Source of the DNA: Agromyces rhizosphaerae
GTDB taxonomy: Bacteria > Actinomycetota > Actinomycetes > Actinomycetales > Microbacteriaceae
Length of the DNA stretch: 64,000 nt
NCBI RefSeq assembly: GCF_027925245.1
Contig: NZ_BSDP01000001.1
Location: 2,480,001-2,544,000, forward strand
Reading direction: 5' to 3'
Numbering within the stretch: position 1 is the first letter of the stretch; each line of letters opens with the position of its first letter. Both the position numbers and the translations under genes were made by a program. Under the pieces are notes generated by a model. The model had not been told where the DNA came from. It ran no database searches and saw only the letters and a program-made list of their open reading frames with translations. Positions 43,280 through 64,000 of the stretch are shown here, piece by piece.

Positions 43280-46037
<2,758 letters not shown>

Positions 46038-46068
46038 TCCCACCCCAGCCGGCGGATGCCGGCGAACG

Positions 46069-46103
46069 CGACGGGCGTCTCCCCACCGGGGAGGCGCCCG
46101 TCG
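46069..46103 (+). terminator. terminator after groEL
   Basis: A 16-bp stem with one G-U pair (CGACGGGCGTCTCCCC with GGGGAGGCGCCCGTCG) and loop ACC, 31 bases after the groEL stop. Confidence 0.82.
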
Positions 46104-46156
46104 TCGTTCCCGCCCGGCACGCTCGCCCTTGACGCCGGGCTCCCGCGCTTGGTGTC

Positions 46157-47542: not shown

Positions 47543-47630
47543 CCAGACCGCGCGCCGACCGCGTCCCGGCGGCCGGTACCCTCGACCGACAGAGGTGCCG
47601 TCGGCACCGGCGACGGAACGGAGCGCGTGC

Positions 47631-48734
47631 ATGGGCGGATATCGGGGAGTGCTCCAGGCGGGCGACGGCGTCGGCGACGGCCGGCCGTACCTGCCCGCCG
47701 AGGTCGGGGCGCTGCACTGGGGGAGACTGCCCTCGCGCGCCGACGCGCCCGTGCTCACGATCGACCCGGGCGACGAGGTCGTCGTCGACACCGTCAGCCA
47801 CGAGGGCATCCTCGAGGACCAGGGGCGCGACCCGGTCGCGTTCTTCGGGGCGCAGGGCGTCGAACCCGACGCGGTGCTGGCGGAGGCGGCCGCCCTCGCG
47901 GCATCCGACCACCCCCGCGACCCCCGTGTCGACGGCCCGCACGTCGTGACCGGCCCGATCCACGTGCGCGGCGCGCGCCCCGGCGACCTGCTGAAGCTCA
48001 CCGTGCTCGACACCACGCCACGGGTGCCGTACGGCGTCATCTCGAACCGCCACGGCCGCGGCGCGCTGCCCGGCGAGTTCCCGCGCGGCGAGGGCAACGT
48101 GAGCGTGTTCGCGCCCATCGACCAGGGCGCCGGCGGCGACTGGTTCGGCGCGCTGCCGCTGGACGACGGCGGCGAGCGCGTCGTGCGGTTCCCGCTCGCG
48201 CCGTTCTTCGGCATCATGGGCGTCGCCGTCGACGCCGACGAGCGCCCGCACTCGGTGCCGCCCGGCACGCACGGCGGCAACATCGACATCAAGCTGCTCA
48301 GCGAGGGCGCGTCGCTCTACCTGCCGGTGCAGGTGCCCGGCGCGCTCGCGTACCTCGGCGACCCCCACTTCGCGCAGGGCGACGGGGAGGTCGCGCTCAC
48401 GGCGCTCGAGGCATCGCTGCGCGGCACGATCCGGTTCGACGTCATCGCCCGCGAGGACGCCGTGCGCGAGTTCGGCGACGTCGCCGCGCCGCTGGCCGAG
48501 ACGAGCGAGTACCTCGTGCCGACGGGCATGGACGAGGACCTCGACGTCGCGATGCAGGACTGCGTGCGGCGCGCGGTCGCGCTGCTCGAGGCGCGGTACG
48601 GGATGGACCCGCACCTGGCGCTCGCGTACCTCAGCGCGGCGACCGACTTCGACATCTCGCAGGTCGTCGACCTCGTGAAGGGCGTGCACGCGCGCATCCG
48701 CACCTCCGACTTCCGCGAGGTGCGCCGTGGCTGA
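47631..48734 (+). CDS. acetamidase/formamidase family amidohydrolase
   Basis: 367 residues from the ATG at 47631 (CGGAG eight bases before). FmdA/AmdA family: DTVSHEGILEDQGRDPVAFF, TGPIHVRGARPGDLLKL, GVISNRHGRGALPGEFP, HGGNIDIKLLSEGASLYLPV and YLSAATDFDISQVVDLVKGVHA. It hydrolyses short amides to ammonia and the acid by analogy. Its last 8 bases overlap the AtzH-amidase gene, so they are coupled, and both may release nitrogen from amide products of purine breakdown. Confidence 0.9.
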   Translation: MGGYRGVLQAGDGVGDGRPYLPAEVGALHWGRLPSRADAPVLTIDPGDEVVVDTVSHEGILEDQGRDPVAFFGAQGVEPDAVLAEAAALAASDHPRDPRVDGPHVVTGPIHVRGARPGDLLKLTVLDTTPRVPYGVISNRHGRGALPGEFPRGEGNVSVFAPIDQGAGGDWFGALPLDDGGERVVRFPLAPFFGIMGVAVDADERPHSVPPGTHGGNIDIKLLSEGASLYLPVQVPGALAYLGDPHFAQGDGEVALTALEASLRGTIRFDVIAREDAVREFGDVAAPLAETSEYLVPTGMDEDLDVAMQDCVRRAVALLEARYGMDPHLALAYLSAATDFDISQVVDLVKGVHARIRTSDFREVRRG

Positions 48735-50316
48735 GTCCGGCGGCGTGCCGGTGCACGTCGCCGGCGGCGGCCCCGCGCCCGAGGGGCTCGTCGAGGCCGC
48801 GCTGGGCTACGAGGCCGCGCTCATGGCCGACGACCTCGACGCGCTGCGCGACTGGTTCGAGCCGGGCGACGAGACGGTGCGGGCGGATGCATCGGGGCTG
48901 CTCGTCGGTCGCGACGCGATCACCCGGTTCCGGGGCCGGCGCGGCGGTGCGGCGTCGCGACGGGTGAGCGGGCTCCGGGTGCTGCCCGTGGCCGAGGGCG
49001 TGGCGCACGTCGTGGTCGAGAACGCCCCGGCGGCGGGTGGCCGCGGCGTGGTCAGCCAGCTGTGGCGCCGCGCCGAGGGAGGCTGGCGCATCGCGGCCGC
49101 CCACGTCACGGCACCCGCACCCGCGCTCGACCGCCGCACCTGGCGCGTGGTCGGCGATCCGCTGCTGCCCGCGGGCGGGTCCGGCGCCCTCGACGGGCGC
49201 ACGGTCGCGGTGAAGGACGTCTTCGCCGTGGCGGGGCATCCGATCGGTGCCGGGATCCCCGGCTACCTCGCCGAGGCGCCGGTCGAGGCGCGGTCGGCGG
49301 CCGCGGTCGAGGCGTTGCGGGCCGCGGGCGCGTCGATCCGCGGCATCGCGCGCACCGACCAGTTCGCGTACAGCATCGCCGGGCGCAACCCGGCGTACGG
49401 CACTCCGCCCAACCCGGCCGTTCCCGGCGCGATCTCGGGCGGCTCGACGAGCGGGCCGGCCGCCGCGGTGGCGCTCGGCCAGGCCGACCTCGGGCTCGGC
49501 ACCGACACCGCCGGGTCGATCCGGGTGCCGGCGTCGTACCAGGGACTGTGGGGCATCCGCACCACCCACGGGGCCGTCGACCGCGAGGGCGTGCTGCCGC
49601 TCGCGCCGCGCTTCGACACCGTGGGGTGGCTGACGCGCGACCGCGAGACGCTGGAGGCCGCGGCCCGGGCGAGCCTGCCGGCGGCATCCGCTGCTGCCAC
49701 GGGGGAGCCGGCGCTCGTGATCGCGCCCGCCCTGCTGCACGGACTCGGGCCCGGCGTGCGCGAGGTGTTCGAGCACGGCGCCGCAGCACTGCGTGCGGCG
49801 GGGGCCGACGTGCGCGAGCTCGACGCCCCGGCGCTCGCCTCGGATGCGCTCGACGAACTGTTCGCCGCGTTCCGCACCGCGCAGGCCGCCGAGGCCTGGC
49901 GGGCGCACGGCGAATGGATCACCGCGCATCCGGGCGAACTCGCCGACGACGTGGCCGCGCGCTTCGCGTGGGCGTCGGAGGTGACGCCGGAGCGGGAGGC
50001 GGCCGCGATCGTCGCGCTCGCCGCGGCGCGCACCGCGATCGACGCGGCACTGGGGGAGGCGCTCCTGCTGCTGCCGTCGGCGGCCTCGGTCGCACCCGCG
50101 TTCGACGCCGAGGGCGCCGACATCGAGGCGGTGCGTCAGGCGACGCTGCGCATGACCGCGGTCGCCGGGGCCACCGGCCGGCCCGCGCTGTCGATCCCGG
50201 GGCTCGAGCTCGACGGCGCCCCGCTCGGCACCTGCGTGGTCGGCCCGCGCGGCGGCGACCTCGACCTCATCGCCCGCGCGGGCGGTTGGCACGAGGCGCT
50301 CGCGCAACGCGACTGA
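48727..50316 (+). CDS. fusion of AtzH/HpxZ-like domain (DUF3225) and AtzE-like amidase
   Basis: 529 residues, GTG start. Residues ~20-130 match the AtzH/HpxZ (DUF3225) domain: GYEAALMADDLDALRDWF, LLVGRDAITRFRGRR and GWRIAAAHVT. Residues ~145-525 are an amidase-signature enzyme with the full catalytic triad: Lys in DGRTVAVKDVF, cis-Ser region SGGSTSGPA and nucleophile Ser in TDTAGSIRVP. In Klebsiella the separate HpxY (amidase) and HpxZ act in oxalurate catabolism, and AtzE-AtzG-AtzH act on carboxybiuret. Fusion in one chain and the purine context suggest a ureido or oxamate-type amide substrate; this is inference. Confidence 0.88.
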   Translation: MAESGGVPVHVAGGGPAPEGLVEAALGYEAALMADDLDALRDWFEPGDETVRADASGLLVGRDAITRFRGRRGGAASRRVSGLRVLPVAEGVAHVVVENAPAAGGRGVVSQLWRRAEGGWRIAAAHVTAPAPALDRRTWRVVGDPLLPAGGSGALDGRTVAVKDVFAVAGHPIGAGIPGYLAEAPVEARSAAAVEALRAAGASIRGIARTDQFAYSIAGRNPAYGTPPNPAVPGAISGGSTSGPAAAVALGQADLGLGTDTAGSIRVPASYQGLWGIRTTHGAVDREGVLPLAPRFDTVGWLTRDRETLEAAARASLPAASAAATGEPALVIAPALLHGLGPGVREVFEHGAAALRAAGADVRELDAPALASDALDELFAAFRTAQAAEAWRAHGEWITAHPGELADDVAARFAWASEVTPEREAAAIVALAAARTAIDAALGEALLLLPSAASVAPAFDAEGADIEAVRQATLRMTAVAGATGRPALSIPGLELDGAPLGTCVVGPRGGDLDLIARAGGWHEALAQRD

Positions 50317-50350
50317 AACACCGGTTGCGTATGATTGCCTGCTGAAACAC
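50313..50350 (+). promoter_or_regulatory. pucG promoter/operator: direct repeats flanking a -10
   Basis: A 9-base direct repeat CTGAAACAC occurs at 50313-50321 and 50342-50350, flanking a perfect-looking -10 TATGAT (50330-50335). The first copy extends to GAAACACCGG, a 10-mer also present upstream of xdhC at 57215. No -35 consensus. Operator role is inference. Confidence 0.5.
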
Positions 50351-51607
50351 TTGACTCAGCAGGAGGATCCCATCGACGCCGCACCGATCAATCCGCCCAC
50401 GAGGCTCCTCATGGGCCCCGGCCCGGTCAACGCCGACCCGCGCGTGCTCCGCGCCATGTCGGCCCAGCTCGTCGGCCAGTACGACCCGTCGATGACGGCG
50501 TACATGAACGAGACCATGGAGCTGTACCGCGGCGTCTTCCGCACCCGCAACGCGGCCACGCTGCTCGTGGACGGCACCTCCCGCGCCGGCATCGAGGCGG
50601 CGATCGTCTCGCTCGTGGAGCCGGGCGACCGCGTCCTCGTGCCCATCTTCGGCCGGTTCGGCCACCTGCTCGCCGAGATCGCGGGTCGCGCGGGCGCCGA
50701 CGTGCACACGATCGAGACCGAGTGGGGCGAGGTGTTCGCGCCCGAGCGCATCGAGGCCGCCATGCGCGAGGTGCGTCCGAAGCTGCTCGCCGTCGTGCAC
50801 GGCGACACCTCGACCACGGTGGCCCAGCCGCTCGACGAGCTCGCCGCGATCTGCGCCGAGCACGGTGCGCTGTTCTACACCGACGTCACCGCGTCGCTCG
50901 GCGGCAACGAGTTCGAGATGGACGCGTGGGGGCTCGACGCCGCCACCGCCGGGCTGCAGAAGTGCCTCGGCGGCCCGTCGGGCAGTGCGCCGATCAGCCT
51001 CTCGCCTGCGGCGGTCGAGCGCATCGAGTCGCGCAAGAGCATCGAGGCGGGCATCCGCTCCGCCGGCGACGCCGTGCGGGCCGACCCCATCCGCTCGAAC
51101 TACTTCGACCTCGGCATGATCCTCGACTACTGGGGCGAGAAGCGGCTGAACCACCACACCGAGGCCACGTCGATGCTCTACGGGGCGCGCGAGTGCGCCC
51201 GACTGCTGCTCGACGAGGGCATGGACCAGGCGATCGACCGACACCGGGTGAACGGCGCCGCGATGGCGGCGGGCGCCGCCGCGATGGGGCTGGAACTGTT
51301 CGGCGACCAGGCGCACCGCATGCACAACGTGGTGGGCGTGGCCATCCCCGACGGCGTCGACGGCGAACGCGTGCGCGGCGCGCTGCTGGAGGACTTCGCG
51401 ATCGAGATCGGCACGAGCTTCGGCCCGCTGCACGGGAGGATCTGGCGCATCGGCACCATGGGCTTCAACGCCCGGCGCGACGCGGTGCTCACCACGCTCG
51501 CCGCGCTCGAGCAGGTGCTGCGCGCCGAGGGGCACCCGGTCACCGCGGGCGCGGGGGTGGGCGCCGCACGCGACGCCTACGCCGATGCGGCGGGGGCGGG
51601 CGCATGA
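50351..51607 (+). CDS. pucG: (S)-ureidoglycine-glyoxylate aminotransferase (PucG-like)
   Basis: 418 residues if it starts at TTG 50351. Fold type I class V aminotransferase: LLMGPGPVNADPRVLRAM, VDGTSRAGIEAAIVSLVEPGD, and GLQKCLGGPSGSAPISLSP with the PLP lysine near residue 205. PucG converts ureidoglycine plus glyoxylate to oxalurate plus glycine; alanine- or serine-glyoxylate aminotransferase is the alternative. The start is unclear: an ideal AGGAGG (50361-50366) lies inside the frame and points to an ATC at 50372. The next gene overlaps by 4 bases (ATGA). Confidence 0.88.
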   Translation: MTQQEDPIDAAPINPPTRLLMGPGPVNADPRVLRAMSAQLVGQYDPSMTAYMNETMELYRGVFRTRNAATLLVDGTSRAGIEAAIVSLVEPGDRVLVPIFGRFGHLLAEIAGRAGADVHTIETEWGEVFAPERIEAAMREVRPKLLAVVHGDTSTTVAQPLDELAAICAEHGALFYTDVTASLGGNEFEMDAWGLDAATAGLQKCLGGPSGSAPISLSPAAVERIESRKSIEAGIRSAGDAVRADPIRSNYFDLGMILDYWGEKRLNHHTEATSMLYGARECARLLLDEGMDQAIDRHRVNGAAMAAGAAAMGLELFGDQAHRMHNVVGVAIPDGVDGERVRGALLEDFAIEIGTSFGPLHGRIWRIGTMGFNARRDAVLTTLAALEQVLRAEGHPVTAGAGVGAARDAYADAAGAGA

Positions 51608-52923
51608 GCGACCGGCTCCGCACCGGCTCGCTCGCGATCGCCGAACGCATCCTCGACCGCTGCGACCGCCTCGGCACCATCACCTCGACGCCGGGCATGA
51701 TCGAGCGCGTCCACCTCTCGCCGGAGCACCGCGAGGCGAACGACCTCGCCGCGTCCTGGCTGACCGAGGCAGGGCTCGAGACCTGGCAGGACGCCGCGGG
51801 CAACCAGTGCGCCCGGCTCGAGGGCGAGCGGCCCGACCTGCCCGCGCTCGTCGTCGGCTCGCACCTCGACACGGTGCGCGACGCGGGCCGCTACGACGGC
51901 ATGCTCGGCGTGCTGCTCGCGATCGAGGTCGCCGCGCGCATCGCGGCCCAGGACCAGCCGCTGCCCTTCGCACTCGAGGTCGTCGCGTTCAGCGACGAGG
52001 AGGGCACCCGGTTCGGCAGCGGGCTCGCCGGCAGCCGGGCGTTCGCCGGCCAGTTCGCCGCCGACTGGTGGGAGTACCGCGACGAGGACGGCCTCACCTA
52101 CGCCGACGCGAGCATCGACTTCGGGCTGGACCCGGGCCGCATCGGCGCCGCCGCCCGACGCCCCGAGGCGCTCGTCGGCTACCTCGAGGCGCACATCGAG
52201 CAGGGCCCGTACCTCGAGGACGCCGACCGCGCGCTCGCCGTGGTGCCGACCATCGCGGGCGCGCGCCGCTTCGCGCTCACGATGACCGGCGTCGCCGGCC
52301 ACGCCGGCGGCACCCCCTACGCGCGTCGCCGCGACGCGCTCGTCGGGGCGAGCGAGCTCGTCGCGGCCATCGAGCGCATCGGCATCGACTCGGGCACGAT
52401 CGCGACGGTCGGCCACCTGCAGGCGTTCCCCGGCGGGGTCAACGTCATCCCCGGCCGGGTGGAGTTCAGCCTCGACCTGCGCGCCGAGTCGAACGAGGCG
52501 CGCGATGCCGCGTGGGCCGAGATCGACCGGGTCGCGCAGGAGATCGCCTCGCGACGCCGGCTCGACTTCCACGCCGAGGAGCGCTACCGGGCCGACGCCA
52601 CCCCGTGTGCGGGCTGGCTGCAGGACGCGGTGACCGCCGGCATCCGCTCGACCGGCGACGACGACCCGATGCGCATCTGGAGCCGCGCCGGCCACGACGG
52701 CATGGCCGTCCACGCCGTCACCGACATCGCGATGCTGTTCATCCGCTGCGGGCGCGGCGGCATCAGCCACCACCCCGACGAGACGGTGACCCGGCGCGAC
52801 GTCGCCCTCGCGCTCGACGCGCTCGAGCAGGCCGTGCTCGCCGTCGCCGAGCGGGTGCGGGCCGAGCCCGAGCGCCTGGTCACCGCGGCGCCCCCCGAGC
52901 CGCACGGGGTCGGGCTGCACTGA
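51604..52923 (+). CDS. allC: allantoate amidohydrolase (M20 family)
   Basis: 439 residues. Zinc-peptidase-like hydrolase of the AllC/HyuC/UAH family: GSHLDTVRDAGRYDGMLGVL, AFSDEEGTRFGSGLAGSR (metal bridging Glu-Glu), EAHIEQGPYLE, VAGHAGGTPYARRRDAL and SRAGHDGMAVHAV. It should hydrolyse allantoate to ureidoglycine, CO2 and ammonia, or act on ureidoglycolate. Coupled to pucG upstream (ATGA) and to the MurR/RpiR gene downstream (TGATG). Confidence 0.9.
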   Translation: MSDRLRTGSLAIAERILDRCDRLGTITSTPGMIERVHLSPEHREANDLAASWLTEAGLETWQDAAGNQCARLEGERPDLPALVVGSHLDTVRDAGRYDGMLGVLLAIEVAARIAAQDQPLPFALEVVAFSDEEGTRFGSGLAGSRAFAGQFAADWWEYRDEDGLTYADASIDFGLDPGRIGAAARRPEALVGYLEAHIEQGPYLEDADRALAVVPTIAGARRFALTMTGVAGHAGGTPYARRRDALVGASELVAAIERIGIDSGTIATVGHLQAFPGGVNVIPGRVEFSLDLRAESNEARDAAWAEIDRVAQEIASRRRLDFHAEERYRADATPCAGWLQDAVTAGIRSTGDDDPMRIWSRAGHDGMAVHAVTDIAMLFIRCGRGGISHHPDETVTRRDVALALDALEQAVLAVAERVRAEPERLVTAAPPEPHGVGLH

Positions 52924-53780
52924 TGGCCGAGCGGATGCCCCGCACCATCGCCGAGCGCATCGACGGCGCGTTCGACGAGCTCACGCCGCAGGAGCGGCGC
53001 GTCGCCGAGTTCGTGCTCGACCACCCCGGCGAGCTCGCCGTGTACAACGACAGCGAGCTCGCGCGCATGGCCGGGGTGTCGAAGGCGACCGTGAGCCGGC
53101 TCTACCGGCGACTCGGGTTCTCGGGTTCCGCCGAGGTGCGCGACCACGTGCGGGCCCTGCGCAGCTCGGGCACGCCGCTCGGGCACGCCGGGGTGCCGGC
53201 GACCGCTCCCGAGGGCGTGTCGGCCGTGCTCGAGGCCGAGCGGGCGAACCTGTCCCGGCTGCTCGACGGGCTCGCCGACGGCGTGCTCGAGCGGGTCGCG
53301 ACGCTGCTGCGCGAGGCGCGCACCGTGCTCGTGGTGGGCTACCGCAACGGGTACCCGGTCGCGCTGCACCTGCGCGAGCAGCTCGCGCAGTGCCGCCCGG
53401 GCGTGCGGATCGGCCCGCAGCCCGGACAGTCGATCGGGGAGGAGCTCGCCGACCTCGGCCCAGGCGACGTGGCCGTGCTCGTCGGACTGCGCCGCCGGCC
53501 GGCCGGGTTCGCGGAGCTCGTGGCCGCCGCCGCGGAGACGGGCGCCGAGGTGGTCGCGATCGTCGACCCGGCGGGGGCGGATGCCGCGGGCGCGGCCGGC
53601 ACCGTCATCGCGTGCCCCGTCGACGGGGCGGGCGCCTTCTCGAGCTACGCGAGCGCGATGAGCCTCGTGAGCCTCGTCGCGAGCGCGGTGCTCGCGGGCG
53701 GGTTGCGCGCGGGGCGCACGCGCATCGCGCGCATCGACGACGCGTATGCGCGGCTGGGCGAGGTCGAGGCGTCGGGCTGA
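52923..53780 (+). CDS. MurR/RpiR family transcriptional regulator
   Basis: 285 residues. RpiR-type helix-turn-helix (residues ~10-85: LTPQERRVAEFVLDHPGELAV, then SELARMAGVSKATVSRLYRR) and a SIS domain (residues ~115-265: RTVLVVGYRNGYPVALHLREQ, VAVLVGLRRRPAGFAELVAAA). Such regulators sense phosphosugars or, in purine loci, pathway intermediates. Its start is coupled to allC, so it is very likely the local regulator of purine breakdown. Confidence 0.9.
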   Translation: MAERMPRTIAERIDGAFDELTPQERRVAEFVLDHPGELAVYNDSELARMAGVSKATVSRLYRRLGFSGSAEVRDHVRALRSSGTPLGHAGVPATAPEGVSAVLEAERANLSRLLDGLADGVLERVATLLREARTVLVVGYRNGYPVALHLREQLAQCRPGVRIGPQPGQSIGEELADLGPGDVAVLVGLRRRPAGFAELVAAAAETGAEVVAIVDPAGADAAGAAGTVIACPVDGAGAFSSYASAMSLVSLVASAVLAGGLRAGRTRIARIDDAYARLGEVEASG

Positions 53781-53813
53781 GCGGGCCGGCCCGGCGATCG
53801 GCCGCTCGAGCGC

Positions 53814-54377
53814 TCAGCGGTCGCGGTCCAGGCCGGTGGAGAGGTCGCCGCACTCGACCGCCACGGCGCGGTGGTCGCGCAGGTAGGCGCTCGCGCCCGC
53901 GTCGCCGTGCAGCGCCGCGGACAGCCGCGTCCAGTGCGCGCGACCGATGAGCACGGGGTGGCCGGGCCGGCCGTCGAAGACGGCGCGGGCGAGCGAGGTC
54001 GCCGGTTCGGTGTCGGCCGCATCGAGCACGCGCCGGGCGACGCTCGCGGGCAGGCCGGGCAGGTCCACCAGGGTGAGCAGCACGGCGTCGGCCGGGGTCG
54101 CTGCGGCGGCGTCGAGCGCGACCCGCACGGTCGAGGCGAGGCCCTCGCTCCAGCCGGGGTGCGTCACGATCGCGGCGCCGGGCGGCACCAGCGCGCGAGC
54201 CGCATCGGCCTCGGCCCCGAGCACGACGAGCACCGACGGGCAGCCGGCCTCGCGCAGCATCCGCACCGCCAGCTCGACCCACGGCGTGCCGTCGGGCTCG
54301 CGCACGAGCGCCTTGGGGCGACCCATGCGGCTGCCGCCGCCCGCGGCGAGCACCACGCCGAGCACGTCACCTGCCAT
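53814..54377 (-). CDS. MocA-like molybdenum cofactor nucleotidyltransferase
   Basis: 187 residues from the ATG at 54377; an in-frame ATG at 54395 is also possible. NTP-transferase motif LAAGGGSRMGRPKALVRE at residues ~8-25, VDLPGLPASVARRVL with the metal-binding Asp, and GRPGHPVLIGRAHW as in MocA. MocA adds CMP to the molybdenum cofactor of xanthine-dehydrogenase-family enzymes. Presence beside the xdh genes supports that role. The two alternative starts place its 5' end against, or overlapping, the divergent uraD start at 54394. Confidence 0.82.
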   Translation of the reverse strand: MAGDVLGVVLAAGGGSRMGRPKALVREPDGTPWVELAVRMLREAGCPSVLVVLGAEADAARALVPPGAAIVTHPGWSEGLASTVRVALDAAAATPADAVLLTLVDLPGLPASVARRVLDAADTEPATSLARAVFDGRPGHPVLIGRAHWTRLSAALHGDAGASAYLRDHRAVAVECGDLSTGLDRDR

Positions 54378-54393
54378 CACTACAGTGGACCAC

Positions 54394-54906
54394 ATGCCAG
54401 CGCCCCAGACGCCAGACTCCTTCCGGGCCGACCTCACTGCCTGCCTGCATGTCGAGCGGTTCGTCGACGAGGTCGCCGCGGGCGCGCCCTACGCGTCGTT
54501 CGACGCGCTGCGGGCCGCAGCCGCCGCATCGGCGGCGACGCTGACGCCGGCCGAGGTCGACGAGGCGATGGCGAGCCACCCGCGCATCGGCGAGCGGCCA
54601 ACCGGGCAGGGCACGGCGCAGTCGTTCTCGACGGCCGAGCAGGCGTCGGCCGACGCGTCCGACGAGGGCCTCGCACGCGCGATCGCCGAGGGCAACGCGG
54701 CGTACGAGGAGCGGTTCGGGCGGGTGTTCCTCATCCGCGCGGCCGGGCGCAGCCGGGCGGAGATCCTCGCGGAGCTCCGTCGGCGGATCGTGCTCGACGA
54801 CCCCGAGGAGCTCGCCATCGTCTCCGACCAGCTCGCGCAGATCGCCCTGCTGCGGCTCGAGCAGCTCTACGGCGACGCAGCCGCGCCGATCGGGGTGGCC
54901 GCATGA
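54394..54906 (+). CDS. uraD: 2-oxo-4-hydroxy-4-carboxy-5-ureidoimidazoline decarboxylase
   Basis: 170 residues. OHCU decarboxylase blocks: EAMASHPRIGER with the catalytic His, EGNAAYEERFGRVFLIRAAGRSRAEIL and a C-terminal ALLRLEQLYG. It decarboxylates OHCU to (S)-allantoin, the third step after uricase. Coupled to uraH by ATGA overlap. Confidence 0.94.
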   Translation: MPAPQTPDSFRADLTACLHVERFVDEVAAGAPYASFDALRAAAAASAATLTPAEVDEAMASHPRIGERPTGQGTAQSFSTAEQASADASDEGLARAIAEGNAAYEERFGRVFLIRAAGRSRAEILAELRRRIVLDDPEELAIVSDQLAQIALLRLEQLYGDAAAPIGVAA

Positions 54907-55241
54907 GCGGGCGCAGCCACGTCACGTCGCACGTGCTCGACGCCACCACCGGGCGGCCCGCGGCGGGGGTCGGCGTGCGGCTCGAGGCATCCGATGCAGG
55001 CACCTGGCGCGCGGTCGGCGCGGGCACCACCGACGACGACGGCCGGGTCGGGACGCTGGGGCCGGAGCAGCTGCCCGCGGGGCGCTACCGCGTGGTGTTC
55101 GACACGGCCGCGTACTTCGGCGACCGGCCGACGTTCTACGCCGAGGTCACGATCGACTTCCTGATCGACGACCCCGCGCAGCACTACCACGTGCCGCTGC
55201 TGCTCAGCCCGTTCGCGTACTCGACGTACCGGGGCAGCTAG
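54903..55241 (+). CDS. uraH: 5-hydroxyisourate hydrolase (transthyretin-like)
   Basis: 112 residues. The N-terminal SHVLDATTGRPAAGVGVRLE with its His, VTIDFLIDDPAQHYHVPLLLSPFAYSTY and the diagnostic C-terminal YRGS place it in the transthyretin-like HIU hydrolases. It opens 5-hydroxyisourate to OHCU. Its final codons lie in a 22-base tandem duplication shared with the end of guaD. Confidence 0.96.
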   Translation: MSGRSHVTSHVLDATTGRPAAGVGVRLEASDAGTWRAVGAGTTDDDGRVGTLGPEQLPAGRYRVVFDTAAYFGDRPTFYAEVTIDFLIDDPAQHYHVPLLLSPFAYSTYRGS

Positions 55242-55266
55242 TAGGACGTACCGGGGCAGCTAGTAG
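55223..55266. repeat. 22-base perfect tandem duplication at the uraH/guaD junction
   Basis: GACGTACCGGGGCAGCTAGTAG occurs twice in a row (55223-55244 and 55245-55266). The first copy encodes the end of uraH and its TAG; the second holds the guaD stop on the minus strand. Confidence 0.97.
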
Positions 55267-55763
55267 TCGGTGCGGTCGGCCTTGCCGCGCCAGGCGTCGA
55301 ACGGCGTGGTCGAGTCGTCGGGGCGCAGCTGCTCGACCGGCGTGTCCCAGGTGGCGCGGTCGCGCGCGAACATCTCGTAGAACTCGCGGTCGTCGAACCC
55401 GCCGTCGGCGGCGTCGTGCCGGTCGGCCGCGTAGACGACGCGATCGACCCGTGCCCACAGGGCGGCGGCGAGGCAGAGCGGGCACGGTTCGCACGACGCG
55501 TAGAGCGTGGCGCCGGCCAACGAGAAGTCGCCGACCGTGCGGCACGCCTCGCGGATGACGCACACCTCGGCGTGGGCCGTGGGGTCGAGGTCGCGGGTCA
55601 CGCGGTTGCCGCCCGCGGCGAGCAGGCGGCCGTCGCGCACGAGCACCGCGCCGAACGGCCCGCCGCCGTCGGCGACGTTGCCGGTCGCGAGCTCGACGGC
55701 CTGCTCGATCCAGTAGCGGTCGTCGCGGGGGCGGTCGTCGGTGGACACGTCGTCGGCGGTCAT
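55260..55763 (-). CDS. guaD: guanine deaminase (cytidine-deaminase fold)
   Basis: 167 residues. Zinc motif HAEVCVIREACR (His-Ala-Glu) and CEPCPLCLAA (PCxxC), plus the GuaD-specific DAADGGFDDREFYEMF and C-terminal PFDAWRGKADRTDY, close to B. subtilis GuaD. It converts guanine to xanthine and ammonia, feeding xanthine dehydrogenase. Start overlaps the allB stop (ATGA). Confidence 0.93.
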   Translation of the reverse strand: MTADDVSTDDRPRDDRYWIEQAVELATGNVADGGGPFGAVLVRDGRLLAAGGNRVTRDLDPTAHAEVCVIREACRTVGDFSLAGATLYASCEPCPLCLAAALWARVDRVVYAADRHDAADGGFDDREFYEMFARDRATWDTPVEQLRPDDSTTPFDAWRGKADRTDY

Positions 55764-57121
55764 GCGGTGCTCCGTTCTGCCGGCCGGTCGAGCAGCCGGC
55801 CGATGGGTTCGCCGTCGGGTTCGACGGGGGTGCCGCGCAGCCAGACCGCGTCGGCGAGGCCGGCGAGGGTCCTGCCGTCGTAGGCCGACACGGGGTTGCG
55901 GTGGCGCAGCGCGGCGGCGTCGACGGTGAACTCCGCGTCGGGGTCGAACGCGACCAGGTCGGCGTCGGCGCCGACCTGGATGCGGCCCTTGGCGGCCAGG
56001 CCCGCGAGGTCGGCCGTCGCGCGCGCCATGCGGTCGACGACGAGCTCGAGGCCGACGCCGCGGCGGCGCGCCTCGGTCCAGACGTTCGCGAGCGCGAGCT
56101 GGAGCCCCGAGATGCCGCCCCACGCACGACCGAAGTCACCGTCGAACCCGAGCTTCAGCTCCGCGGTCGCGGGGGAGTGGTCCGAGACGACGCAGTCGAG
56201 CGTGCCGTCGACGAGCCCGGCCCAGAGCAGGTCCTGGTTGGCCTCGTCGCGGATCGGCGGGCAGCACTTGAACGCGGTCGCGCCGTCGGGGATGTGCGCG
56301 ACATCGAGCGTGAGGTAGTGCGGGCAGGTCTCGGCCGTCAGTCGCAGGCCCTCGGCCTTCGCCTCGGCGATGAGGGGGAGCACGGCGGCGGAGGACACGT
56401 GCAGGATGTGCGCGCGCCCGCCGGTGCGCCGGATGCCGTCGATGACGCGCCGTACCGCGTCGAGTTCGGCCTCGGGCGGCCGCGATTCGGCGAACCTGCG
56501 GGCGCTCGGGCCGCCGTCGTTGGCGTGGGCGTCGAGCACGTCGGGGTCCTCCGCGTGCACGATGAGCAGCCCGTCGAACGCGGCCAGCTCGTCGAGCGCC
56601 GCGTCGAGGCCCGCCGCGTCGAGCGGCGGGAACTCGTCGACGCCCGACGGCGACAGGAAGGCCTTGAACCCGAACACGCCCGCGTCGTGCAGGGCGCGCC
56701 GCGCGCCGGCGTTGGAGGGCACCGCACCGCCCCAGAACCCGATGTCGACGTGCGCCGCCCGCGCCGCCGCCGCACGCTTGACCGCGAGCGCGTCGACGTC
56801 GATCGTCGGCGGGATGCTGTTGAGCGGCATGTCGATGATCGTCGTGACCCCGCCGGCGGCAGCCGCACGGGTCGCGGTCGCGAAGCCCTCCCACTCGGTG
56901 CGCCCGGGCTCGTTGACGTGCACGTGCGCGTCGACGATGCCCGGCAGCAGCACGCGTCCGCCGTCGACGCGGGCGGTCGTACGGCCGCGCAGGCCGGCGC
57001 CGGCGGGCGCCACGGCGGCGATCACGCCGTCGTCGACGCCGACCTCGGCCGGGGCGATCCGGCCGTCGACCAGCGCCGCGTCGGCGAGCACGACGAGGTC
57101 GTGGAGTGGGGTATCGGGCAT
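55760..57121 (-). CDS. allB: allantoinase
   Basis: 453 residues from the ATG at 57121, preceded by GGAGGAG. Amidohydrolase fold: GIVDAHVHVNEPGRTEWEGF (metal HxH), FKAFLSPSGVDEF with the carboxylated Lys, VHAEDPDVLDAH, AETCPHYLTLD and CVVSDHSPATAELK with the catalytic Asp. These fit allantoinase rather than dihydroorotase. It hydrolyses allantoin to allantoate. Divergent from xdhC; operon with guaD. Confidence 0.94.
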   Translation of the reverse strand: MPDTPLHDLVVLADAALVDGRIAPAEVGVDDGVIAAVAPAGAGLRGRTTARVDGGRVLLPGIVDAHVHVNEPGRTEWEGFATATRAAAAGGVTTIIDMPLNSIPPTIDVDALAVKRAAAARAAHVDIGFWGGAVPSNAGARRALHDAGVFGFKAFLSPSGVDEFPPLDAAGLDAALDELAAFDGLLIVHAEDPDVLDAHANDGGPSARRFAESRPPEAELDAVRRVIDGIRRTGGRAHILHVSSAAVLPLIAEAKAEGLRLTAETCPHYLTLDVAHIPDGATAFKCCPPIRDEANQDLLWAGLVDGTLDCVVSDHSPATAELKLGFDGDFGRAWGGISGLQLALANVWTEARRRGVGLELVVDRMARATADLAGLAAKGRIQVGADADLVAFDPDAEFTVDAAALRHRNPVSAYDGRTLAGLADAVWLRGTPVEPDGEPIGRLLDRPAERSTA

Positions 57122-57294
57122 GTCTCCTCCATGGCTGACGCTAACAGGCATGCGTTTCGCGTCCGTTGCGGCGGGCGGCGACGCGTGCGCTCGACGCCGG
57201 ATGGGGGCAGGATCGAAACACCGGGTTAACGCGTGCCGCATACGATCACACGATCGCGCGGCTCGCCCCGCGCATCGCACGAAGTGAGGTCTCG
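57122..57294. promoter_or_regulatory. divergent control region of allB-guaD and xdhC operons
   Basis: A 173-base gap between divergent genes. It contains GAAACACCGG at 57215-57224 (shared with the pucG promoter), GTTAAC just after it, and a TACGAT -10 candidate at 57241-57246 directed at xdhC. A GTTTC half-site lies near 57151. Control by the local MurR/RpiR protein or a GlnR-type factor is possible but unproven. Confidence 0.5.
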
Positions 57295-58458
57295 ATGCTC
57301 GAACTGGCGCAGGACGTGGTGGGCCGGCTCGGCCGGGGGGAGGCCTTCGCGCTCGCGACCGTGACCGCGATCCGCGGCTCCGCCCCGCTGCCGGTCGGCA
57401 CGTCGATGCTCGTCGACGCGAGCGGACGGGTCGCAGGCAGCGTCTCGGGCGGCTGCGTCGAGGGCGCGGTGTTCGAGCTCTGCGCGCTCGCGCTCGAGGA
57501 GGACTCCGCGCACGTCGAGCGCTTCGGCATCGACGACGAGACCGCGTTCGCTGTGGGCCTCAGCTGCGGTGGGGAGCTCGACGTGTTCGTGCAGCCGTTC
57601 CCGAGCGGGGCGGGGGCGGATGCCGCGGGCGAGCCGTTCCGGCGCGCGCTCGCCGGGTCCGACGCGGGCGTCGCGGTCGTGGTCGCCGGGCCGGCGGGGC
57701 TCGTCGGCCGGGTGCTGCCCGCCGGGGCCGACGACGCGCTCACGGACGCCGAACTCGACGCCGCCGGGCTCGACGGCGTGCGCGCGGAGCGCGTGCAGGC
57801 CGAGGTCGATCGCGCCGCGGCATCCGGCCGCACCGGCATGGTCGACGTCGACTGCGGCGAGGCCGTGCTGCGCCTGTTCGTCGAGTCGCGGCTCGCGCCG
57901 CCCCGGTTGCTCGTGTACGGCGCGATCGCGTTCGGCGATGCGCTCGCCGCGGCCGCGAAGCCGCTCGGCTACCGCGTCACCGTGTGCGACCACCGCCCGG
58001 CGTTCGCGACGCCCGAGCGGTTCCCGCACGCCGACGAGGTCGTCGTCGCGCGTCCCGCCGAGCACCTCGCGCGCACGGCGACCGACGAGCGCACGGTCGT
58101 CGTCGTGCTCGGCCACGACGCGCGCACCGACGTGCCCGTGCTCGCCGCGGCGCTCGAACGGCCGGTCGCCTTCGTCGGCGCGCTCGGCTCCCGGCGCACC
58201 CACGACGAGCGGATGCGGCTGCTGCGCGACGTCGGCGTCGGCGACGCCGCGCTCTCGAGCCTGCATTCGCCGATCGGGCTCGACCTGGGCGCCGCGACCC
58301 CGGCCGAGACCGCGCTGTCGATCCTCGCGGAGGTCGTCGCCGCGCGCACCGGCGCGTCCGGCCGGCCGCTGCGCGAGACGACCGGCCCGATCCACCGCAC
58401 CGTGCCGGGCACCGACGCCGTCGTCCGTTCCGCCCCGACCGCGCCCGCCGCGCACTGA
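57295..58458 (+). CDS. xdhC: XdhC/CoxI family xanthine dehydrogenase maturation factor
   Basis: 387 residues from the ATG at 57295 (AGTGAGG five bases before). N-terminal XdhC/CoxI domain (VTAIRGSAPLPVGTSMLVDA, GSVSGGCVEGAVFEL) and C-terminal Rossmann domain (LLVYGAIAFGDALAAAAKPL, TVCDHRPAFATPERFPHADE, YDA-like FVGALGSRRTHDERM). It sulfurates and inserts the Mo cofactor into xanthine dehydrogenase. First of the xdh operon. Confidence 0.93.
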   Translation: MLELAQDVVGRLGRGEAFALATVTAIRGSAPLPVGTSMLVDASGRVAGSVSGGCVEGAVFELCALALEEDSAHVERFGIDDETAFAVGLSCGGELDVFVQPFPSGAGADAAGEPFRRALAGSDAGVAVVVAGPAGLVGRVLPAGADDALTDAELDAAGLDGVRAERVQAEVDRAAASGRTGMVDVDCGEAVLRLFVESRLAPPRLLVYGAIAFGDALAAAAKPLGYRVTVCDHRPAFATPERFPHADEVVVARPAEHLARTATDERTVVVVLGHDARTDVPVLAAALERPVAFVGALGSRRTHDERMRLLRDVGVGDAALSSLHSPIGLDLGAATPAETALSILAEVVAARTGASGRPLRETTGPIHRTVPGTDAVVRSAPTAPAAH

Positions 58459-58468
58459 GGCGGCAACC

Positions 58469-59272
58469 GTGGATCTCGAGACCGTCGCCACGTACCGGCG
58501 CGCCACCTCACGAGCCGACCTCGCGCTCGCCCCGGGCGAGCGGTTCGTCGCCGGCGGCACCTGGCTGTACTCCGAGCCCCAGGTCGGCACGAGCGGCCTC
58601 GTCGACCTCACCGGCATGGGCTGGGCGAGCATCGAGGAGCACGACGGAGGGCTCCGCATCGGCGCGACCTGCACAATCGCCGAGTTGGTCGCGCACGCGG
58701 TGGGAGCGGCCTGGCCGGCGCATCCGCTCGTCTCCGACTGCGCGAACGCGCTGCTGGCCTCGTTCAAGGTGTGGAACTCCGCGACCGTCGGCGGCAACGT
58801 CTGCCGCGCGTTCGCCGCGGCCGGAATGGTCTCGCTCTGCACGACCCTCGACGGCGTCGCGACGATCTGGACGCCCGACGGCGGCGAGGAGCGGCGGCCG
58901 GTCGTCGACCTGGTCGCGGGCAACGGCGTGACGACCCTCGCCGACGGCGAGGTGCTGCGCGCGATCGACCTGCCCGCGCACGCGCTGCGGGCCCGCACGG
59001 CGTTCCGCAAGATCGCGCTCGCCGAGCTCGGCCGCTCGGGTGCCGTCCTCACCGGTCGCGTCGACGGGGACGGCGCCGCGACCCTCGTGATCACGGCCGC
59101 GACCGAGCGCCCGACCGTGCTCCGCTTCGACCGGCTGCCCGACGCGGCGACCCTGCGCAGCGTCGTCGAGGCCGCGCCCGGCTACTACTCCGACCCGCTC
59201 GGTTCGGCCGACTGGCGGCGCGCCGTGAGCGTCGCCCTGCTCGAGGACGTGCGCGAGGAGCTGGCCGCATGA
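58469..59272 (+). CDS. xanthine dehydrogenase FAD-binding subunit
   Basis: 267 residues, GTG start. CoxM/XdhB-type FAD domain: [35 protein letters not shown], and [20 protein letters not shown] (flavin loop) near residue 105. It passes electrons from the iron-sulfur part to NAD+. Coupled to the large subunit by ATGA. Confidence 0.92.
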
Positions 59273-62046
59273 GGGTCACCGTGAACGGGCAGCCCCGGGA
59301 GGGCGAGCCGCGGGCCGGCCAGAGCCTGCGCACCTACCTGCGCGAGCACGCGCACTTCGAGGTGAAGAAGGGCTGCGACGCGGGCGACTGCGGCGCATGC
59401 GCAGTGCTCGTCGACGGGGTGCCCGTGCACTCGTGCATCACGCCGGCGCACCGCGCCGACGGCGCCGAGGTCACCACGGCCGCGGGGCTCGGCACGCCCG
59501 ACGACCTGCACCCGATGCAGGAGGCGTTCGTCGACCACTTCGGGTTCCAGTGCGGGTTCTGCACCGCCGGCATGGTCGTGACCGCCTCCACCCTCGACGA
59601 GGACGACCTCGACGACCTGCCGCGGCGCATGAAGGGCAGCCTCTGCCGGTGCACGGGGTACCGCAGCATCCGCGAGTCGATCCGGGCGGGCGTCGCCGCG
59701 GGGGCGGGCTCGGGACGCGCGGGCGCGCGGAACCTCGGGTCGACCGGTGCGGTCGGCACCTCGGCGCATCCGCCCGCCGCCCGCCGCGTGGTCACGGGCA
59801 CCGAGCCGTTCACGTTCGACACCGCCGTGCCGGGCATGCTGCACCTGCGGGTGCTCGGCTCGCCCCACGCGCACGCCCGCATCGTCTCGATCGACACGAG
59901 CGCCGCCATGGCGATCGACGGCGTCGAGCTCGTGCTCACCCACGAGGACGTGCCCGCGACGCGCTACTCCACCGGACGGCACGAGCACCGCACCGACGAC
60001 CCCGACGACACGCGCATGCTCGACGACGTCGTGCGCTTCGTCGGCCAGCGCGTCGCCGCCGTGGTCGCGACCAGCGCCGCGGCCGCCGAGGCGGGCTGCC
60101 GCGCCATCGAGGTCGTCTACGAGGAGTTGCCCGCGGTCTTCGATCCGGATGCCGCGCGGCGGCCCGGTGCGCCGGTGATCCACCCCGGGCGCACGCCCGA
60201 CGACCGTGTCGACGAGGCCGACCGCAACGTGATCGCGGCCCTGCACGCGGGCTTCGGCGGTGACGTGGACGATGCCCTCGCGGCATCCGAGGTCACCGTC
60301 TCGGGCACCTGGCAGACGCAGCGCCAGAGCCACGCCCAGCTCGAGACGCACGGCAGCATCGCCTGGACCGAGGAGGACGGGCGGCTCGTCGTGCGCACCA
60401 GCACCCAGGTGCCGTTCCTCGTGCGCGACGAGCTCGCGCGCGTGCTCGACCTGCCTCCCGAGCGGGTGCGCGTGTACGCGGCGCGCGTCGGCGGCGGCTT
60501 CGGCGGCAAGCAGGAGCTGCTCACCGAGGACCTCGTCGCCGTCGCGGCGTTGCGGCTCGGGAAGCCGGTCGGCTGGGAGTACGCGCGCACCGACGAGTTC
60601 ACGCGCGCGACGCTGCGGCACCCGATGCGCGTCGCGGTACGGCTCGGCGCGACCCGCGACGGCGTGCTCACCGCGATGCACGTCGACGTGCTGAGCGACA
60701 CCGGCGCGTACGGCAACCACTCGCGCGGCGTCATGTTCCACGCCTGCTCCGAGTCGATCTCGCTGTACCGGAGCCCGGTGAAGCGCGTCGACGCCGAGGC
60801 GGTGTACACGAACAACCCGCCGTCGGGCGCGTTCCGCGGCTACGGGCTCGGGCAGGTGATCTTCGGCGTCGAGTCGGCGCTCGACGAGCTCGCGCTCGAG
60901 CTCGGCATCGACCCGTTCGAGCTGCGCCGGCGCAACGTCATCCGCGACGGCGAGCCGCCGTTCGCGTGGCACGACGAGGCCGAGGCCGAGCTCGTGCACG
61001 GCAGCTACGGGCTCGACCAGTGCCTCGACCTTGCCGAGCGGGCGCTGCGGCGCGGCAACGGCGTCGACGCTCCCGAGGGGCCCCAGTGGCGCGTGGGCGA
61101 GGGCATGGCGGCCGCGATGATCGCGACCATGGCGCCGCGGGGCCACATCTCCGAGACCACCGTGACGCTGCGCCCCGACGGCACCGTGCGCCTCGGCGTC
61201 GGCACGAGCGAGTTCGGCAACGGCACCACGACGGTGCACGCGCAGATCGTCGCGACCGACCTCGGCACCGGTACGGACCGCATCGTGATCCACCAGTCCG
61301 ACACGGATGCCGCGACCCACGACACCGGTGCGTTCGCGTCCGCAGGCACGACCGTCGCCGGCAAGGCGCTGCACGCGGCGGCGCTCGCGCTCCGCGAGGT
61401 GCTGGTCGCGGCGGCCGCGGGGATCGCGGGGTGCGTGCCGGAGGAGGTCGTGCTCGACCGGGACGGGGCGCTGGCGGGTGCCGGGCTCGACGCACGCCGC
61501 GTCGGCTTCGATGAGCTCATCGCCGCCGTGCCCGCCGAGCACCGCTCGCCCGAGGGCGCGTTCGCGCAAGGGGCCGAGTACGGCGACCGGCGCTCGCTCG
61601 CCTACAACGTGCACGCCTTCCGCGTCGCGGTCGACGTGCGCACGGGCACCGTCCGCATCCTCCAGTCCATCCAGACGGCCGACGCGGGCACGGTCATGAA
61701 CCCCGAGCAGTGCCGCGGCCAGGTCGAGGGCGGCGTCGCCCAGGCGATCGGCGGCGCGCTGTACGAGGAGGTCGTGCTCGACGAGGGGCACGTCACCACG
61801 CCCGTGTTCCGCCTCTACCGCGTGCCGCAGATGGCCGACGTGCCCGACACCGAGGTGTACTTCGCCGAGACCAGCGACGACCTCGGGCCGTTCGGCGCCA
61901 AGTCGATGAGCGAAAGCCCGTACAACCCGGTCGCGGCTGCGCTCGGCAACGCGATCCGCCGCGCGATCGGCGTGCGCGGCTACGAGCTGCCGTTCTCGCG
62001 CGACCGCGTCTGGCGGCTCGCGAGCGGCACCATCCAGACAGACTGA
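59269..62046 (+). CDS. xanthine dehydrogenase, fused [2Fe-2S] and molybdopterin subunits
   Basis: 925 residues. Residues 1-~150: ferredoxin-like [16 protein letters not shown] and the second cluster motif [10 protein letters not shown]...[10 protein letters not shown]. Residues ~165-925: molybdopterin domain with [30 protein letters not shown] (substrate loop), [16 protein letters not shown], and the C-terminal [20 protein letters not shown] with the catalytic Glu. It hydroxylates hypoxanthine and xanthine to urate. Fusion of FeS and Mo parts with separate FAD is less common than three separate chains. Confidence 0.93.
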
Positions 62047-62080
62047 CCCACGACACATCGAACGAACTCAGGAGCAGCAG

Positions 62081-62986
62081 ATGGCGATCATCCTCGGCGA
62101 CGACCGGTACGGCAAGGCGGAGAACCGCATCGTGCGGATCGTGCGCGACAGCCCCCGCCACGAGATCCGCGACGTGAACGTGTCGACCGCGCTCCGCGGC
62201 GACTTCGCGGCCGCCCACCTCGAGGGCGACCAGGGCAACGTGCTGCCCACCGACACGCAGAAGCAGACCGCCTACGCGTACGCGAAGCTGCACGGCCTGA
62301 CGGAGCTCGAGGAGTACGGCCTCGCGCTCGCGCGCCACTTCGTGGACGACGTGGAGCCCGTGGCATCCGCCCGCATCGAGATCGAGGAGTTCGCGTGGGA
62401 CCGCGTCGTCGCCGACGGTGCGGAGCACGACCACACCTGGACGCGCAACGGGAAAGAGGTGCGCCTCGCGTCGGTCACGGTCGCCGGGTCGGGCGAGGCG
62501 CAGCAGACGTGGGTGACCGGCGGGTTCAAGGACCTCGTGATCCTGAAGTCGACCGGCTCGGAGTTCCACGGCTTCCTCGAGGACGAGTACACGGTGCTGG
62601 AGCCCACCACCGACCGCATCATGGCGACGTCGCTCGTCGCGACCTGGCGCTTCGGCACCACCGACGTCGACTGGAATGCGGTCTACGACGGGGTGAAGGC
62701 CGTCATGGTCGAGCGCTTCGCGAACGTGCACTCGCTCGCGCTGCAGCAGACGCTCTACGCGATGGGCCGCGCCGTGCTCGAGGCGTACCCCGAGATCGTG
62801 GAGATCCGCATGTCGGCGCCGAACAAGCACCACTTCCTCTACGACCTCGGGCGCTTCGGCATCGACAACGACAACGAGGTCTTCCACGCCGACGACCGGC
62901 CCTACGGGCTGATCCAGGCGACGGTCACCCGCGACGATGCGCCCGATGCCGGGCCCGCGTGGGACCACTACACCGGTCTGGTCTGA
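62081..62986 (+). CDS. pucL: urate oxidase (uricase)
   Basis: 301 residues with AGGAG upstream. Tunnelling-fold uricase: GDDRYGKAENRIVRIVR with the catalytic Lys, LPTDTQKQTAYAYAKLHG with the catalytic Thr, SFE-like STGSEFHGFLEDEYTVL and MSAPNKHHFLYDLGRFG near the C-terminus. It oxidises urate to 5-hydroxyisourate, cofactor-free. Coupled to the downstream deaminase by TGATG. Confidence 0.96.
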   Translation: MAIILGDDRYGKAENRIVRIVRDSPRHEIRDVNVSTALRGDFAAAHLEGDQGNVLPTDTQKQTAYAYAKLHGLTELEEYGLALARHFVDDVEPVASARIEIEEFAWDRVVADGAEHDHTWTRNGKEVRLASVTVAGSGEAQQTWVTGGFKDLVILKSTGSEFHGFLEDEYTVLEPTTDRIMATSLVATWRFGTTDVDWNAVYDGVKAVMVERFANVHSLALQQTLYAMGRAVLEAYPEIVEIRMSAPNKHHFLYDLGRFGIDNDNEVFHADDRPYGLIQATVTRDDAPDAGPAWDHYTGLV

Positions 62987-64000
62987 TGGCGGCGGGTGCC
63001 GGGGGCGCGCCGGCACGCCGGGTGGTGATCGACGGATGCCACGTGGCGACCGTCGACGCGGCCGGCACGGAGTACGCCGACGGCTACGTGGTCGTCGACG
63101 GGGACCGCATCACCGCGGTCGGCGCGGGGCCGGTGCCGGGTGAGCTCGCGGCATCCGCTCACGAGCGCATCGACGGGCGCGGGCACCTGCTCACGCCCGG
63201 CCTCGTGAACACCCACCACCACCTGTACCAGTGGCTCACGCGCGGGTTCGCGCAGGACGACATCCTGTTCGACTGGCTCGTCGCGCTGTACCCCATGTGG
63301 TCGCGCATCGACGCCGACCTCGTGCGCGCCGGTGCCGCAGGGGCGCTCGCCGTGGCGGCGCGCTCGGGCTGCACGACGCTCGCCGACCACCACTACGTGT
63401 TCCCGGCGGGCGGCGGCGACCTCGTCGGCGCGATCGTCGAGGCCGGGTCGGAGGTCGGCATCCGCCTGCACGCGACGCGCGGGTCGATGGACCTGGGGCG
63501 GAGCGCCGGCGGCCTGCCGCCCGACTTCGCGGTCGAGACGACGGATGCCGCGCTGGCGGCCACCCGCGAGGCCGTCGACGCGTACCACGACCCCGGGTTC
63601 TCGTCGATGGTGCGCATCGCCGCGGCGCCCTGCTCGCCGTTCTCGGTGACCGCCGACCTGCTGCGCGAGTCGGCGGTGCTCGCGCGCGAGCTCGGCGTGC
63701 GGCTGCACACGCACGGCGCCGAGACCGTCGAGGAGGAGGCGTTCTGCCGCGAGCGATTCGGCACCTCGCCCGCGGGCTACCTCGAGTCGCTCGGCTGGCT
63801 GGGGGACGACGTGTGGATGGCGCACTGCGTGCACCTCGACGACGCCGACGTGCGCCGCTTCGCCGACACCGGCACCGGCGTGGCGCACTGCCCGTCGTCG
63901 AACGCGCGGCTCGCGGCGGGCATCGCGCCCGTGCGTGCGCTCGTCGATGCCGGCGCGCCCGTCGGCCTCGGCGTCGACGGGGCCGCGTCGAACGAGTCGG
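62986..64000 (+). CDS. 8-oxoguanine deaminase-like amidohydrolase (truncated by window end)
   Basis: At least 338 residues, no stop before the window ends. Amidohydrolase core: LTPGLVNTHHHLYQWLTRGF (metal HxH), TTLADHHYVFPAGGGDLV, LHTHGAETVEEEAFCRERFG (third His), MAHCVHLDDADVRRFADTG and GLGVDGAASNES (catalytic Asp). The DDILFDWLVALYPMW and ADHHYVFP patterns fit 8-oxoguanine deaminases better than cytosine deaminases. Product would be urate, used directly by the coupled uricase. Confidence 0.88.
   Translation, partial: MAAGAGGAPARRVVIDGCHVATVDAAGTEYADGYVVVDGDRITAVGAGPVPGELAASAHERIDGRGHLLTPGLVNTHHHLYQWLTRGFAQDDILFDWLVALYPMWSRIDADLVRAGAAGALAVAARSGCTTLADHHYVFPAGGGDLVGAIVEAGSEVGIRLHATRGSMDLGRSAGGLPPDFAVETTDAALAATREAVDAYHDPGFSSMVRIAAAPCSPFSVTADLLRESAVLARELGVRLHTHGAETVEEEAFCRERFGTSPAGYLESLGWLGDDVWMAHCVHLDDADVRRFADTGTGVAHCPSSNARLAAGIAPVRALVDAGAPVGLGVDGAASNES

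Follow-up and report, generated by a model that had tools for sequence, protein, structure and literature searches.

A proposed oxalurate branch in the purine degradation locus of Agromyces rhizosphaerae

In the described systems closest to the one considered here, oxalurate and oxamate are handled in several ways. Bacillus subtilis forms oxalurate via a ureidoglycine aminotransferase, and the ggt-like HpxW serves as an oxamate amidohydrolase (PMC5270733). E. coli does not metabolise oxamate further (PMC11326118). During cyanuric acid degradation, AtzH works downstream of an amidase, whose N-carboxy product it is believed to decarboxylate; mutant data pointed to a part for Tyr22 and Arg46 in this (PMC6219798). 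Within the open-access literature examined, no actinobacterial enzyme is assigned to oxalurate made by (S)-ureidoglycine-glyoxylate aminotransferase (UGXT). Here we analyse a 64-kb window, meaning the whole stretch of DNA under study, from the 3.61 Mb single-contig genome of Agromyces rhizosphaerae. The window carries a purine degradation locus from position 47631 onwards, and our subject is the pair of genes at its start, fmdA and amiH, which lie upstream of the gene for UGXT.

The fmdA-amiH-UGXT segment

We read the locus as one for purine and urate nitrogen salvage in which the allantoin branch runs through oxalurate, a reading to which we assign a probability of about 0.6, with substrates for FmdA and the amiH product that are deduced rather than observed. 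The genes that matter most to this reading are as follows.

47631..48734, + strand: fmdA, FmdA/AmdA-family amidohydrolase, proposed oxamate amidohydrolase (PF03069, E 1.1e-31)
48727..50316, + strand: amiH, AtzH-like domain (about 20-130; PF11533, 7.5e-16) fused to an amidase domain (about 150-520; PF01425, 1.6e-48), proposed oxalurate amidohydrolase / N-carboxyoxamate decarboxylase
50411..51607, + strand: UGXT (PDB 3nnk, E 1.5e-173)
51604..52923, + strand: allC, allantoate amidohydrolase (NF006775, 506 against a cut-off of 479)

The UGXT of the window is identical to the Klebsiella enzyme (3NNK) at 252 of 392 aligned positions, a high full-length identity to a characterised UGXT, and it also matches the structure of B. 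subtilis PucG (3isl, E 1.2e-131). The reaction of UGXT consumes glyoxylate and produces oxalurate. Moreover, ureidoglycolate lyase (PF04115) was matched in none of seven genomes searched, that of Agromyces included (the E. coli control alone matched), and the Agromyces genome gave no match to PF02615, the ureidoglycolate dehydrogenase family; ureidoglycine aminohydrolase, allantoicase, ureidoglycolate amidohydrolase and allC paralogues were outside these searches. Because UGXT makes oxalurate and neither PF04115 nor PF02615 is matched, the "purine-to-glyoxylate" end point of the original prediction is unsupported and the label is probably wrong; something should process oxalurate. That prediction had left unnamed fmdA and amiH, the first two genes of its interval, and the 8-oxoguanine deaminase gene at its end.

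Association of fmdA and amiH with UGXT

We compared the neighbourhoods of the best 80 of 560 amiH relatives, a set that leans to close kin and from which the same or very near genomes may be missing. (The nearest relatives of the amiH protein are a metagenome protein, at 84%, and one from Agromyces sp. SYSU T00194, at 80%.) In 74 of these 80 loci fmdA is the gene immediately preceding amiH; 73 have UGXT on the amiH strand, and in 71 the gene right behind UGXT is allC. Seven of the loci, some on short contigs, lack UGXT (L029, L033, L045, L048, L059, L066 and L079) and six lack fmdA (L019, L033, L045, L048, L059 and L061). In L019 and L061 we entertained an HpxW-like protein as a stand-in for FmdA and rejected it, since the neighbouring genes scanned encode two sugar kinases and a protein with an Ig domain. 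Likewise rejected as a part of the module was the oxidoreductase upstream of fmdA (46157-47542), found near amiH in one of the 80 loci.

Co-occurrence was counted in 248 genomes of the order. UGXT was accepted at E < 1e-170, with five matches of 40-44% identity set aside, and fmdA matches weaker than 1e-60 were set aside in five genomes, as were weaker second matches in two others. UGXT was present in 45 genomes, amiH in 56 and fmdA in 61. Among the 45 genomes with UGXT, 44 had amiH and 44 had fmdA; the distance to UGXT was at most 10 kb for amiH in 38 genomes, for fmdA in 38, and for one or both in 43. The corresponding Fisher p values, which ignore relatedness, are 1.6e-36 for amiH and 1.5e-33 for fmdA. 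In a sample of 376 genomes from the phylum, 6 genomes had UGXT, 12 had fmdA and 10 had amiH; in each of the six with UGXT, both other genes lay within 10 kb of it. Four of the six are also in the order sample, and the two new ones belong to the same class and another order. Two loci from another order (L104 and L105) have collinear operons with the gene order fmdA-amiH-uraD-uraH-uox-allB-UGXT-allC-rpiR. Five genomes of the same genus gave no match to UGXT, amiH or fmdA at the thresholds used, which makes the distribution of the module patchy even at genus level. Membership of fmdA and amiH in the UGXT pathway is well supported.

In one family (f14), each of the ten genomes with UGXT has amiH or fmdA no more than 10 kb away from it, arranged differently from the window, and in nine of the ten just one of the two genes is near UGXT. 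Some amiH genes of this family are distant from UGXT; one such gene (L098) has an isochorismatase gene beside it. We built trees of FmdA and of amiH, the latter from a manual choice of 25 of the 80 loci, made to keep the tree short, together with later loci with an amidase score of at least 150. Four FmdA proteins of the family group with those of isochorismatase-type loci (97/92, within a 100/97 set), away from the main UGXT type, and its amiH proteins do the same (97/95). On well-supported branches, moreover, the UGXT label has to change four times or more in each tree. Since the proteins of this family group with those of a different locus type, the simplest reading is that the link with UGXT arose more than once; the trees suggest this and stop short of proof because the label changes may be gains or losses. 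Of the conclusions that go beyond direct observation, this repeated association has the firmest support.

The isochorismatase-type loci deserve description in their own right. Six loci without UGXT (L083-L088) contain fmdA and amiH together with genes for a RutB/BiuH-like isochorismatase, a cytosine-deaminase-like amidohydrolase and a creatininase-family protein, as well as an ABC transporter, an FAD (flavin adenine dinucleotide) oxidase, a cupin and a flavin reductase. They recall the clusters of biuH, gatA-like and creatininase genes of ammonia-oxidising archaea (PMC12625717). Three further loci without UGXT (L089-L091) are compact and comprise GntR, fmdA, amiH, isochorismatase and cupin genes.

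The residues of the amiH protein are in keeping with an AtzH-like role. Y28 and R52 align with Tyr22 and Arg46 of AtzH, and the arginine-rich pocket of AtzH is present as well. Across 102 fusions the equivalents of Tyr22, Arg46, Arg63, Arg66, Arg73 and Gln108 are kept in 101, 100, 101, 99, 102 and 101 proteins, respectively; Phe94, Arg96 and Gln106 of the AtzH pocket are apparently not kept in amiH, as judged from a pairwise alignment, with one column counted across the fusions. The amidase domains of the same 102 proteins retain the amidase Lys in 101, the amidase Ser in 101 and the nucleophile Ser in 102, and the AtzH domain is missing in frame from 7 of 109 amidases. (One locus, L110, has a separate AtzH-like hit, placed by hand, close to amidase and isochorismatase genes, an unfused version of the same pair of domains.)

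FmdA belongs to the wider PF03069 family. Among sequences of 300-430 amino acids, Arg140, His141 and Arg264 are invariant in 78 sequences from UGXT loci (77 loci and the window), 10 from isochorismatase loci and 12 others. In an alignment read by hand, Arg140 is matched by Ala, Gly, Gly and Pro in four acetamidase-type chains, and some acetamidase-type chains have basic residues at the sites of His141 and Arg264. An extra conserved arginine might perhaps suit a carboxylate substrate such as oxamate. We discarded the idea that Arg264 is special to this FmdA subfamily, the aligned residue being Thr, Ala, Lys, Lys and Ile in five chains. (Two genomes encode a divergent paralogue of FmdA with a PF01019 gene, of the gamma-glutamyltransferase/HpxW family, some 1 kb away; the coordinates are G013:C91:4755-8522 and G144:C1:31178-34841.)

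Proposed route and its alternatives

The remaining genes of the locus are listed below. Open reading frames (ORFs) were scanned from 43.7 to 64 kb of the window, together with ten in the next 14 kb; the first 43 kb of the window lie outside the annotated part.

52923..53780, + strand: RpiR/MurR-type regulator (HTH_6 and SIS domains)
53814..54377, - strand: MocA/MobA-like nucleoside triphosphate (NTP) transferase, start uncertain (PF12804, E 1.9e-31)
54394..54906, + strand: uraD, decarboxylase of 2-oxo-4-hydroxy-4-carboxy-5-ureidoimidazoline (OHCU) (TIGR03180, 150 against a cut-off of 139)
54903..55241, + strand: uraH, 5-hydroxyisourate (HIU) hydrolase (TIGR02962, 121 against 87)
55260..55763, - strand: guaD, CDA-type guanine deaminase (best PDB match 1wkq, E 2.7e-40)
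55760..57121, - strand: allB, allantoinase (TIGR03178, 527 against 358)
57295..58458, + strand: xdhC, maturation factor for a molybdenum enzyme (XdhC_C, XdhC_CoxI)
58469..59272, + strand: xanthine dehydrogenase, FAD subunit (PF00941)
59269..62046, + strand: xanthine dehydrogenase, FeS-Mo fusion (Fer2, Fer2_2, MoCoBD_1, MoCoBD_2)
62081..62986, + strand: uox, uricase (TIGR03383, 341 against 168)
62986..64374 in window numbering, crossing the window edge at 64000, + strand: 8-oxoguanine deaminase (PRK08203, 639 against 532)

Family models and PDB matches bear out the guanine deaminase, uricase, HIU hydrolase, OHCU decarboxylase, allantoinase, allantoate amidohydrolase and UGXT of the original prediction, and its regulator and MocA-like factor have the domains expected of them. 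Its xanthine dehydrogenase and XdhC fare less well: the expected Pfam domains are there, but the best xanthine dehydrogenase equivalogs for xdhC, the FAD subunit and the FeS-Mo fusion fall under their NCBIfam cut-offs (for the fusion, XdhA, 527 against 780). Because the xanthine-specific models score below cut-off, xanthine is assigned as substrate from best match and context. With preferred starts, fmdA and amiH overlap by 8 nucleotides, UGXT/allC, uraD/uraH, allB/guaD and the FAD/FeS-Mo genes by 4, and allC/rpiR and uox/8-oxoguanine deaminase by 1, so that six junctions have the predicted overlaps of 1-4 nucleotides; the gene strands imply five transcription units where three operons had been proposed. 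Purine degradation for nitrogen, as predicted, is well supported by the gene content. An Rfam scan of 44000-64000 gave nothing at the gathering score, and a repeat search of five intergenic stretches gave matches resembling GC-rich chance, apart from one exact 15-nucleotide direct repeat, CGGGGCAGCTAGTAG, at 55230-55244 and 55252-55266, which spans the convergent ends of uraH and guaD.

With respect to uptake, no permease was found among the ORFs scanned in the window or beyond it, in agreement with the earlier claim for as much of the window as was scanned. The suggestion of an NCS2 permease beyond the window did not hold: PF00860 has no match in the whole genome (11 of 14 controls matched), and such a permease is ruled out at the sensitivity of that search. 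NCS1 (PF02133) has one marginal match in the genome, 1.9 Mb away (28.3 bits against a cut-off of 23.5). In two Demequina loci (L022 and L081) an ABC ATPase gene stands between amiH and UGXT, beside an NMT1-like binding protein gene in L022; these are candidates for ureide or purine uptake.

By homology, guanine or 8-oxoguanine would be deaminated and xanthine oxidised to urate, which would pass through HIU and OHCU to allantoin and then, through AllB and AllC, to allantoate and S-ureidoglycine. UGXT would transaminate ureidoglycine with glyoxylate as the acceptor, the products being glycine and oxalurate. Since oxalurate is N-carbamoyl-oxamate, deamination of its carbamoyl end, which we attribute to the amidase domain of amiH, would give N-carboxyoxamate, on chemical grounds the kind of compound that AtzH handles. 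The fused AtzH domain may then speed the decarboxylation of N-carboxyoxamate to oxamate, and FmdA may hydrolyse oxamate to oxalate and ammonia. All four nitrogens of the purine ring would thus be recovered without urease, with oxalate as the carbon end product. We favour this UGXT-operon reading because of the start/stop overlaps, the co-occurrence, the collinear operons in another order, the AtzH residues, the precedent of AtzH working behind an amidase and the apparently repeated association.

Several findings weigh against it. UGXT is absent from 12 of 56 genomes with amiH and 17 of 61 with fmdA, and isochorismatase genes occur in 10 of 25 loci without UGXT and in 0 of 75 with it. An independent test failed: ureidoglycolate dehydrogenase, considered as another source of oxalurate in genomes with amiH and without UGXT, was rejected, PF02615 being matched in 3 of 18 searched and never near amiH. 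The amidase is far from AtzE/HpxY (120 bits against a TIGR02715 cut-off of 425.75), and in three UGXT loci (L104, L112 and L117) the amidase has no AtzH domain, which spontaneous decarboxylation could explain. Oxalyl-CoA decarboxylase, tried as a downstream partner, is over its cut-off in just one of 45 UGXT genomes; oxalate would therefore be excreted or used otherwise. Finally, PF01019 proteins (the HpxW superfamily) are present elsewhere in the Agromyces genome and in 25 of the 45 genomes with UGXT; an enzyme acting in trans could thus deal with oxamate.

This last point bears on the alternative that survives best, namely that amiH turns oxalurate into oxamate, which is excreted or processed elsewhere, with FmdA acting on some other small amide of the pathway. 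The fate of oxamate in E. coli offers a precedent, and in family f14 nine of ten genomes keep just one of fmdA and amiH near UGXT. Nevertheless, fmdA accompanies UGXT in 44 of 45 genomes, whereas in none of the 45 does a PF01019 gene share a contig with UGXT at a distance of 10 kb or less (drafts may hide some), and we regard this alternative as unlikely. Somewhat less likely again is the route of the original prediction, from ureidoglycine through ureidoglycolate to glyoxylate, in a form in which amiH, FmdA or both are new ureidoglycolate or ureidoglycine amidohydrolases. Both compounds bear amide-type groups open to amidases, and UGXT requires a supply of glyoxylate; against this, PF04115 was absent from all seven genomes, UGXT, which yields oxalurate, is kept beside fmdA and amiH, and an AtzH decarboxylase domain better fits a carbamate derived from oxalurate. 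That fmdA and amiH encode general amide scavengers, a formamidase and an amidase that merely share the operon, is highly improbable: PF03069 and PF01425 are broad families and both genes recur in the second locus type, but FmdA scores 76 bits against a cut-off of 500 for the formamidase equivalog NF045496, and the co-occurrence with UGXT and the apparently separate associations speak against it.

If the oxalurate route is correct, two widespread proteins now named by family (acetamidase/formamidase, and amidase with an AtzH-like domain) would gain specific functions, the AtzH domain would gain a second defined role, and oxalate, not glyoxylate, would end purine nitrogen salvage in these bacteria.

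Comparison with known systems

The locus resembles the Klebsiella HPX system (HpxJ, a UGXT, with HpxWXYZ) in having UGXT and allantoate amidohydrolase genes beside those for an amidase, an AtzH-like protein and a further amide hydrolase on an oxalurate branch. It differs in that an FmdA-family protein takes the place of HpxW, which has the gamma-glutamyltransferase fold, and one amidase-AtzH chain the place of HpxX, HpxY and HpxZ; the amidase, moreover, is from another lineage (its best NCBIfam model is PRK08310, at 354 against a cut-off of 391, and it scores 120 against 426 for AtzE). With the atzDGEHF cyanuric acid operon of Pseudomonas sp. ADP it would share an amidase step whose N-carboxy product AtzH decarboxylates, and the Tyr22 and Arg46 equivalents are kept; here, however, amidase and AtzH are fused, no AtzD or AtzF was seen in the locus, and Phe94, Arg96 and Gln106 are apparently not kept. 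The oxamic transcarbamylase of E. coli, AllFGH, also takes oxalurate as its substrate, at the step of allantoin breakdown proposed here, but by phosphorolysis to oxamate and carbamoyl phosphate and with unrelated proteins (PMC11326118). The puc pathway of B. subtilis is likewise a Gram-positive purine catabolism with a UGXT (PucG); the protein suggested there, YwrD, is HpxW-like (PMC5270733).

Our best reading is that fmdA-amiH is a non-orthologous counterpart of Klebsiella HpxWXYZ, with functions assigned by analogy. More broadly, we lean, by a little over even odds, towards an undescribed actinobacterial module of two proteins, an amidase-AtzH fusion and an FmdA-family oxamate amidohydrolase, whose origin is separate from that of HpxWXYZ, whose link with UGXT formed on more than one occasion, and which has a further role in another pathway, alongside an isochorismatase, a cytosine-deaminase-like enzyme and a protein of the creatininase family.

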